64,000 nt of DNA from Mesostigma viride (lineage: Eukaryota > Streptophyta > Mesostigmatophyceae > Mesostigmatales > Mesostigmataceae), in contig RPFO01000154.1 of assembly GCA_009746045.1 (NCBI GenBank), forward strand, positions 3,179,763 to 3,243,762, given 5' to 3'. The translations under genes and the position numbers were made by a program. How positions within the stretch are numbered: the stretch's first letter is position 1; each line of letters begins with the position of its first letter. The notes beneath the pieces are model-generated. The model saw nothing but the letters and a program-made list of their open reading frames with translations. It ran no database searches and was not told where the DNA came from. Below are positions 13,939-54,557 of this stretch, one piece after another.

Positions 13939-16900
13939 ATGCAGTCCAGGGCAGCATTGGCAGCGCTTCTGGTGTTGTCGGCGTTGCTTAGCATGTCTAT
14001 GATAGCATGGCAACCCTGGCACGTGGACCTCTTTCGCCACGACAACTTGCATGGCTTTACGGGCAGCATATCCATATTTGAGCGGAATCACACGGAATTT
14101 GATGCTGGGGAGAGTGCCATCAAACAATTGCCAGCAAATGCCGCACAGGCGAGCGTGGTAAGACACTCGAACTCTGGGAGGCTCGGTCCAGCTACTCGAG
14201 CGTCTGCCTCGCATCATGTCAGGAAATCTAGTTCGGCAGTGTCGACGGCCCATTCGAGACCCCGTGCACGTAAATTTGAAGGCGGGGAGCCTGCGAGTGC
14301 AAGCCTCCCTTCGCCGCCTGCCTCATCCAGCGAAGCGCCTGAACATCGCGTTCCTATTATTATGAGCAGGCAAGTTGAAATTCTAGAGAGAAGCATGCCT
14401 AAATAAACTGTGCCTATATACACTGTGCCCGTATAAACTGTGCCTACATAAACTGCGCCTATGTAAACTGTGCCTGTAAAAATTGCGCCTGTTATAGACA
14501 CTGTGCCTGTATAAACTGTGATGCCAAAAGAAACAGGGTCGTCGACTTGGGTACTGCTGTGGTTGTGCTATAATGGAGCTACGATGGAGCCATATTAGTT
14601 CTATATTGGAGCCATAATGACTCTATATAAGTGATATTGTTGTGCTATAGTCGTGTCGTAGTTGTTCTGTAATTGTGAGCCGACCAATCGGAGTCAGGTG
14701 GAGGACGCAGCGCCTTGCCTGAAGTTACCATAGTGTGCTAATTACACTTTTGGCTAAACATGGCATTTGTTATGGTCCAATCGCATGTTCCCTGGCTATC
14801 AGCAGTAACTGTTGAATTCAGATTGCGCAGCTGTTAGGCTCGTCAGGCCTCTGTACATGGTGTTGACGGTACAACGATGGCGATTCACTGGCAAACCGTT
14901 TTCATGGAGCAGCCATGGCAAGATTGTTGCATTGAGGAGGGCAATGCGGCAAGCAGTCATGGAAAACCGTTGCATTGAGGAGGGCAAGGCTGCACACGGT
15001 CATGGCAAATCGTTGAGTTGAGGAGGGCAAGGCAGCACATGGTCATGGCAAACCGTTGAATTGAGGAGGGCGTGTTTATCCCAACAACAAGCAGGCCCCG
15101 CCCATTCTCGTGTCACACGCGTTTACCCCAACCACCCCAGGAGCCACCCGATCTGGTCCTGCCCCGCCATCTGGTGCCACCCACCCGTTCTGGTCGCGTG
15201 TGTTGCCCACCAACCTCGTCCCCGCAGGGCTTGGTTCCCCCCTGTGTGATGAAACCATTCCTGCCCCTCCCCCCCTGAACCACTCCTCTCCCTCTCCTTG
15301 CCTCGTGATACTTTTTAGCTTCCCCTGCACAGGCAGCACTGACAGACCCACCCACACCAAACTTCTTGCTGTTGTTTATTCCGGTTCCCCCTGCCGACCT
15401 TGTTTATGACACAACTTGGCCATGACACGACTTGATGCTGCCGACGCCACAGGCAGCGCTGGTCCCCAGGCATGGCAGTGCACAGCGGCCCCCACTCGTT
15501 GGGCAACGTGACCGACGCCCTGTACGCGCTGCTGCCTGCCAGGGACCCCCTGGAGAACATGACGTTCGGCAGGTGTGCCGTCGTGGGCAGCGCAGGCAAG
15601 TCCTTCCTTCAACCACCTCTTGACCTCCGGCATGCCGCCATAGACCTTTTTGTTTTTCCTCAGTGTCCATCCTTCCCATCTTTCTGCTACCCTTCCCCCC
15701 CCTATCCTCCCGCCAAAAAAGTTTGTCATCCTTTTCGGCGCCCAGTTCGCCAACCTTTGCGGCAAGCGTGTTGGTGCTGCTGCTGCTGCTGCTGCCGCTG
15801 CCGCTGCCGCTGCCGCAGCTGCGCAAGGCCTCATGAACAATCGTTCAGGTGTGGATCAACTCCTTGTTGCTGTAATAACCTGTGTGGCATGCCTGCTGCT
15901 GTTGCGCAATCCTCGAGGTTCCTTACTTGACGATGCAATCACTTGGTTAAGTATCCGCACGACCTCCGCTACGACTTGGGAGCCTCGTGGTTGATTGTTG
16001 AATGAATGCGTTTACTTGGTTGCTTGTGTAACAATACGCAGGGCAGGCCTGCCGCTGCAGTGCAACCCTCTTGGTTTCATGATGTATTGATGGATTTACT
16101 TGGCCTGGTGGGTCTGCCTTGATGGCCTGCATGTGTGGATCTTATATCTACGCCAGGCCTGCGGCTGCTGCGCAAGTTGGGTGCTGAAACACTGGGAGCA
16201 ACTTAGTATCCACCCTCCATATGCTTGGCTGTTTGTCCTTACAACGCTAGCGCCAGGCATGCTGCTGCAGCTGCGCAAGGCATCTTGAGCTATTAATCCA
16301 TGCATCTATTTGTTTAGGTAATCTAATTTTTACGACATGCCTGCTGCTGCTGCGCATGTCTTATGTTTTGTCAACGCACCTGCTTGCATCTTCTTCCAAT
16401 GTTTACGCCAGGCCTGCTCCTGCTGCGCAAGGCCGGCGGGGCGATCGACGGCCACGACGCCGTCATCCGCTTCAACAGCGCGGGCACGCGCAGCATGGAG
16501 GAGTTTGTGGGCGCGCGCACGACCCTCCGGCTGGTCAACCGCGACCATGTCGGTGTGTGGGTGCTGGGGTTGGCGGGGTGGGGGATGGGGATTGGGAGGA
16601 GTCTGTAATTTGTGAGGGGAGAGTGGGGGGGTGAAGAGGGCACTGGGGCCGAGGGTTGTTTGTGGGGTACACCTGGGAGTTGTGGCATCGGGAGGTTTGT
16701 GGGCAGGTGGGTACATGGGAGTCTGGGTTGGTGAGGCGCATGGGCAGCAGGGGGTGTGGGTTCTGGAGTTGTGGGTGGGCGTTGGGGAGTTTGGGGGATA
16801 GGAACGGGGGTAGGAATGGGAAAAGGGGGCTGCTTGGGCAAGCCGTGTGCCTGTGTTTGGACATATGCTCATGTGACGCGTCTACGTATTGGGTTGAGTT

Positions 16901-54557: not shown

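Follow-up and report, generated by a model that had tools for sequence, protein, structure and literature searches.

Introns of Mesostigma viride carry serial, decayed copies of their own exon edges

Results

The window, meaning the whole 64-kb stretch of M. viride DNA analyzed here, contains three genes that were modeled across their introns. The GT29 model comprised six spliced exons (349 aa, PF00777 match), the P450 model five (483 aa, PF00067 match), and the NAA20 model two (74 aa, PF00583 match). None had a stop across the junctions used, and the alignment of NAA20 to the solved NAA20 structure PDB 6vp9 extended over the splice junction. Three long minus-strand frames (2-2494, 27166-28089, and 28869-29336), one of 831 aa, look like mobile-element proteins; two of the three may be reverse-transcriptase pieces, which they resemble by eye. 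The window is also rich in simple repeats: a 149-bp unit repeated 6.8 times at 99% and built from short GTCTTCAC-like repeats (2986-3999), and microsatellites of ATGG (24193-25335, 286 units, 100%), GGCGGCAA (47225-47939, 89 units, 98%), and GTGA (57609-60687, 771 units, 98%). A 32-bp unit repeated 38 times at 98% occupies 51329-52544 in the first P450 intron, where it adjoins a donor ladder.

The following features of the three genes were considered.

16412..16552, plus strand: GT29 exon with a copied start, in an open spliced frame (PF00777)
15770..16411, plus strand: GT29_E1, acceptor-side ladder of exon 16412-16552; five decayed exon-start copies (p = 0.003)
18083..18640, plus strand: GT29_E2, donor-side ladder of exon 17861-18082 (p = 0.003)
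21592..22437, plus strand: GT29_E5, donor-side array of exon 21456-21602, found by TRF (donor 21603, exon-only p = 0.043)
35022..35296, minus strand: NAA20_Ea, donor-side ladder of the exon ending at 35297; three copies (p = 0.003)
33334..34049, minus strand: NAA20_Eb, second donor (34049); one exon-end copy about 716 nt in (p = 0.010)
52880..53354, minus strand: P450_E1, donor-side ladder of the intron starting at 53312; TRF, six copies (p = 0.003)
50936..51220, minus strand: P450_E2, acceptor-side ladder of the exon starting at 50935; two copies (p = 0.003)
49766..49849, minus strand: P450 third donor (49849); one decayed exon-end copy and GT about 60 nt in (p = 0.096, non-significant)
46085..46520, minus strand: P450 donor (46517), a listed but weak ladder (p = 0.126)

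A sequence-only reading of this region had proposed that introns in several genes hold series of progressively decayed copies of the neighboring exon edge together with its splice site, and had listed eight such ladders. We compared 30 nt of pure exon from 13 donors and nine acceptors with the adjoining intron, using 300 dinucleotide shuffles; because the query was exon sequence alone, the splice-site consensus was unable to help a match. Five of the 13 donors had a copy in their own intron, one at p = 0.043 and four at p ≤ 0.010 (GT29_E2 at 18083, NAA20_Ea at 35296, NAA20_Eb at 34049, and P450_E1 at 53312), as did two of the nine acceptors (GT29_E1 at 16412 and P450_E2 at 50935, p = 0.003 each). 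In this test 15 of the 22 window edges were without a copy at p < 0.05. Six of the eight listed ladders stood. The tract at 50029-50776 (minus strand) was rejected as a ladder: it lacks exon sequence (p = 0.309) and consists of a CCCG/CCCAC microsatellite with a 14-bp repeat beginning at the donor (TRF). At 46085-46520 donor-like motifs recur, with weak and non-significant similarity to the exon. The NAA20_Eb copy was absent from the list.

The window ladders varied in structure. The junctions of the GT29_E1 copies lie 73, 152, 255, 521, and 604 nt upstream of the exon, with identities of 0.94, 0.90, 0.90, 0.89, and 0.86 over 18-21 nt. The best GT29_E2 copy is found about 310 nt into the intron and a weaker one at about 504 nt. 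The GT29_E5 array starts inside the exon with a 77-bp unit (5.3 copies), followed by a 44-bp unit (10.1 copies; TRF); its units hold the decayed exon end and donor, and its junctions are spaced at 77, 77, 77, 77, 77, 134, 85, 44, and 88. The NAA20_Ea copies lie 102, 207, and 274 nt into the intron, and the first retains the intron part (z 17.5), as in a tandem duplication. P450_E1 comprises a 96-bp array and then older 71-bp units, with identities of the exon part of 0.97, 0.97, 0.90, 0.81, and 0.78 in order of distance. The P450_E2 copies lie 129 and about 270 nt upstream, and their intron part is homologous (z 6.4).

For a sample beyond the window, the source assembly (439,911,974 bases in 2,243 contigs) was searched with Pfam profiles for exons of P450s, class-I tRNA synthetases, and chaperonins. 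The searches yielded 88 loci, each about 3.3 kb long, which cover 30 of 34 P450, all 28 tRNA-synthetase, and 30 of 58 chaperonin matches. Within a gene, neighboring profile matches were connected by means of GT/GC..AG, phase, and profile position. Thirty-seven exon pairs were tried and 36 resolved, the other being dropped; four of the 36 junctions were dropped for a score below 7 or a residue deviation above 3, and 32 were kept. Edges placed from a single match (31 donors and 42 acceptors) brought the pool to 63 donors and 74 acceptors, after removal of an unrecorded number of single-match edges that lay at the end of a domain or lacked a good splice site near the match. The chaperonin loci L060 and L061 are allele-like, and their edges are therefore counted twice. 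Contig C2011 (L031-L033, L040, L043, L044, L053, L058, and L059), with eight tRNA-synthetase matches and one chaperonin match in bacterial-looking long open frames, was left out. It is unlike the intron-rich genes elsewhere and is probably a bacterial contig within the assembly.

With exactly placed junctions and introns of up to 1,200 nt, 12 of 32 donors and three of 32 acceptors were positive at p < 0.01. When the last or first 30 exon nucleotides of the pooled edges were compared with their own introns using fresh shuffles, 22/63 donors and 9/74 acceptors were positive at the same threshold. Positive donors occurred in all three families (P450, 6/14; tRNA synthetases, 9/16; chaperonins, 7/33) and in 13 of 22 contig-and-family groups. 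Both 5' and 3' exon boundaries were affected, the donors more often than the acceptors (Fisher p = 0.002 for the pool and 0.016 for the exactly placed junctions). The claim that such ladders occur on both sides of introns and in several genes was borne out, and extends beyond the window to three unrelated families.

The copies were specific to the adjoining intron. At p < 0.01 no edge matched the intron across its exon (0/63 donors, 0/74 acceptors), and exon interiors taken 70-100 nt from the edge matched the same intron in 0/58 donor and 2/69 acceptor cases. Inverted copies stayed at background (1/63 and 0/74), so that the copies are in direct orientation. At p < 0.05, 27/63 donors were positive in their own intron, compared with 5/63 in the other-side intron, 1/63 in an unrelated intron, and 1/58 for exon interiors; for acceptors the figures were 13/74, 3/74, 7/74, and 5/69. 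At this threshold the excess is obvious for donors and modest for acceptors. Exon-edge similarity thus exceeded that of shuffled sequence, and copies favored the intron beside their own exon over other places; both outcomes were clear for donors and held by a smaller margin for acceptors.

Introners are repeated sequences found in many introns of one genome. Many introns of M. viride likewise hold repeated sequence. Unlike introners, each ladder consists of its own exon's sequence: sharing of edge copies with the introns of unrelated genes was not found at p < 0.01 (0/63 donors, 0/74 acceptors).

Local copies were not confined to exon edges. Sixteen of 116 interior intron 30-mers on the donor side, and 11 of 136 on the acceptor side, had a copy elsewhere in the intron, from which we conclude that the introns of this genome are full of local repeats. 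Against this background the donor edges stood out (22/63 versus 16/116, Fisher p = 0.002), and the acceptor edges were barely above it (9/74 versus 11/136). The fraction of donor-side 24-mers with a local copy was 0.25 at positions −12..0 and 0.125 at −24..−12; deeper than 48 nt into the exon it was at most 0.016, and in shuffled sequence 0.000.

The copy nearest the true site had been described as often the best preserved. We examined 22 ladders, of which five lie in the window, counting copies down to a score of 22. In 17 of them no copy scored higher than the one nearest the exon, where chance would give about nine; the within-ladder rank correlation of order with score averaged −0.55 (20 ladders, permutation p = 0.0015). 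One P450 ladder on contig C1391 breaks the gradient (identities 0.75, 0.77, 0.90, and 0.76) and is irregular, with junction spacings of 142, 196, 115, and 327. Clean arrays also span donors, as in the CCT gene on C1468 (three copies of 76 bp), P450_E1 (96 bp), and GT29_E5 (77 bp). The shortest unit was a 9-base donor repeat, and the longest exceeded 200 bases. The 9-base repeat, at a tRNA-synthetase donor (L034, C224:3050057), consists of six perfect units of GTGAGCAAG close behind the exon end, each readable as a possible donor. Among copies found by exon sequence alone, GT was retained in 20 of 29 donor copies (neutral expectation 0.80) and AG in seven of 10 acceptor copies (0.85), the expectations being derived from exon identity. 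Copy spacing modulo 3, in 22 values compiled by hand, was even (6, 8, and 8). The median length was 869.5 for introns with ladders (n = 14) and 675 for the others (n = 18), a difference short of significance (p = 0.13). An apparent spacing floor at edges (period below 60 nt in 1/18 edge and 128/224 interior arrays; unweighted p 0.0004-0.008) vanished with length weighting (p 0.22-0.43), and the idea was dropped because longer duplications are proportionately likelier to span any given point.

A duplication spanning a boundary copies both exon and intron sequence. Intron sequence was recognizable behind the copy at eight of 27 edges (12/44 copies), among them NAA20 and P450_E1, and could no longer be recognized at the other 19. 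In a neutral model, the changes of a single lineage separate the exon part of a copy from the exon, whereas those of two lineages separate the intron parts. A fixed-age simulation of this model seemed to fit but ignored exon identity, and an age-mixture version taking exon identity into account failed: it predicted that the intron part would be recognizable for 97-98% of the copies whose exon identity is at least 0.93 and for 66-76% of the rest, compared with the observed 6/13 and 5/32. When 18 copies from 12 edges were chosen solely by exon positions −46..−21, gapless identity was 0.73 and 0.69 in the final 20 bases of the exon, then 0.54, 0.49, 0.40, 0.32, and 0.37 in successive intron bins. 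Three perfect exon parts (36/36, 37/37, and 21/21) adjoin intron parts below z 2.5 (z 2.3, −0.3, and 1.6); in the 22/22 copy of P450_E2 the intron part is recognizable but diverged (z 3.8). One tRNA-synthetase exon (L055, C1690:3884265) has copies of both ends, 36/36 and 37/37, in its flanking introns, with the splice dinucleotide changed in each and weak intron similarity. Judged by eye, remnants of the intron part are present there and at C1431.

The exon parts were also short. Their median length was 34 nt in 21 donor copies and 24 nt in eight acceptor copies, lengths that local alignment may have cut short in old copies. Exon parts above 50 nt were seen in 2/21 donor copies (13.5 expected) and 0/8 acceptor copies (5.5 expected), and the mean exon share of the unit was 0.31, compared with 0.51 under uniform breakpoints. 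A G-rich row with an exon share of 1.0 (C1690:3894558) was omitted from one count of the 21 donor rows, which was repeated with all 21. The better preservation and the shortness of the exon parts are unexplained by neutral decay at equal rates. Short-tract conversion, selection on copies, fast intron change, or transcript-based polishing could contribute to the misfit.

Recent duplications were sought as near-identical copies of 24-mers. These were found for 6/60 donor and 1/71 acceptor exon edges, for 1/60 and 0/71 junction-centered 24-mers, and for 129/1166 (donor side) and 111/1383 (acceptor side) interior intron 24-mers. Recent duplication is therefore without concentration at exon edges, and rarer at acceptor exon edges, which lends no support to the suggested process focused there. 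We read the donor-edge excess at the general threshold as a deeper time depth.

Contigs C1641 and C887 are allele-like, which suggests uncollapsed haplotypes or recent duplications. In a first aligned stretch they differ by 45 substitutions in 2,999 bases, 0/267 of them in exon, and by 10 gaps, one of which is an 18-bp insertion inside an intron that nearly repeats its neighbor. A second stretch, with 29 substitutions in 1,354 aligned bases (windows 200 to 1500; the alignment is poor outside), contains a clean 43-bp intronic tandem duplication. Neither length difference is at an exon edge. Counting two duplications over some 4.4 kb, between contigs that are about 1.7% diverged, gives a rough rate that rests on these two events; carried forward by hand, it would amount to a few tenths of a duplication per point at a quarter divergence, roughly the same order as seen at donors. 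Loci L060/L061, which are 97% identical over 3 kb, and L089/L090 are C1641/C887 pairs of the same genes. Kinesin places on C2 and C622 have equal scores, which likewise suggests haplotypes or recent duplications.

Discussion

Ladders of this type had been thought undescribed. The available portions of two reports on lancelets (PMC3087553 and PMC3902484) describe the same phenomenon as mirages, minisatellite-like tandem repeats over exon-intron boundaries in Adh3, the globins BflGb6 and BflGb9, TnC, and PGBD5. As presented there, mirages occur at 5' and 3' boundaries, often include splice signals, leave splicing undisturbed, vary in length among alleles, and are treated for single genes. The M. 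viride ladders share with these accounts tandem units that span the boundary and hold the exon edge, imperfection of some units, and location of the copies in the intron, and many of the units carry the splice signal. Unlike in mirages, decayed graded ladders, known here from sequence alone, outnumber clean arrays; copies occur at donors about three times as often as at acceptors, and they reach about one-third of the donors sampled from three unrelated families. We therefore class the ladders as a variant of mirages that is more pervasive, age-graded, and donor-biased. Tandem duplication is also described, in the portions available, as a route of intron gain that creates a second set of splice sites (PMC3296678 and PMC3087553); a second set is created here too, but the copies sit in existing introns. 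The accessible part of a paper comparing Chlamydomonas genomes (PMC8226300) makes no mention of such ladders, and a literature search limited to open-licence papers returned no survey of exon-edge copies of this kind.

In our judgment the ladders are likely to be the product of ordinary tandem duplications that spanned exon-intron boundaries and were repeated over time. Such duplications, from tens of bases to a few hundred in length, would cross boundaries by chance. Following duplication across a donor, the first donor would still be joined to the intact exon and stay in use, so that the protein would be unchanged and the new exon end with its donor copy would sit in the intron. Coding selection would freeze the true exon edge as the intronic copy decayed, and the next duplication would again use the exon edge, leaving the newest copy nearest and pushing older ones inward. 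Duplicated acceptors would probably survive less often, since the upstream duplicate acceptor would be met first. As the duplications would be contiguous, exon interiors would hardly be copied. We infer which donor is used, the cause of the difference between donors and acceptors, and the neutrality of the process. Tandem duplication explains the direct orientation, the edge anchoring, the near absence of interior copies, the arrays, and the gradient, and is the simplest account. The intronic tandem-duplication differences between the allele-like contigs are events of this type.

A process tied to the junction might instead copy or refresh only the exon end and donor, for example through gene conversion of short tracts by the exon or through RNA- or repair-templated insertion. 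Such a process would keep the exon block near-identical to the exon with diverged neighbors, and the much better preservation of exon than intron parts, the short exon reach, and the perfect 36- and 37-nt copies of L055 that stop at the junction all have this character. We nonetheless consider this unlikely, as near-identical copies show no excess at edges, the intron part is also duplicated at eight of 27 edges, including those of NAA20 and P450_E1, and remnants of it are visible by eye in L055 and C1431. Inverted copies at background also speak against repair-templated insertion, which need not give that result. It is rather improbable, in our view, that exon edges act as master templates beside tandem duplication, with exon-end tracts refreshing the nearest copies through conversion or junction-bounded copying.

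Selection might also keep the copies as alternative or decoy splice sites, a role that had been raised for the ladders. The donor dinucleotide is often kept and the exon part is preserved; GT retention is not above the neutral expectation, however, spacing modulo 3 is even, and the copies tend to decay with distance. As far as sequence can indicate, there is no sign of such a function, and we regard it as very improbable. Chance similarity or low complexity would fit the richness of the window in simple repeats, one of them at 50029-50776, and an assembly artefact, such as transcript-based polishing in which exon sequence replaced diverged copies, would presumably produce exact exon-only identity as in L055. 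Either is scarcely credible given the mismatched-intron controls (0/63 and 0/74 at p < 0.01), the several arrays that take in intron sequence, and the finding that, among the 45 copies whose exon block is anchored, 41 are not perfect matches of at least 21 nt.

If tandem duplication is indeed the source, its traces in M. viride have further uses. Once similarity between intron copies has faded, exons under coding constraint still reveal old duplications, and donor edges can therefore serve as a clock for intron lengthening. Were exon edges to act as master templates as well, each intron's record of its own splice junctions would be ordered in time and would renew itself. With such traces at about one-third of the donors sampled, this genome would allow measurement of how often boundary-spanning duplications arise and how well duplicated donors are tolerated relative to duplicated acceptors, and the same traces could show whether copies become new introns or alternative sites.
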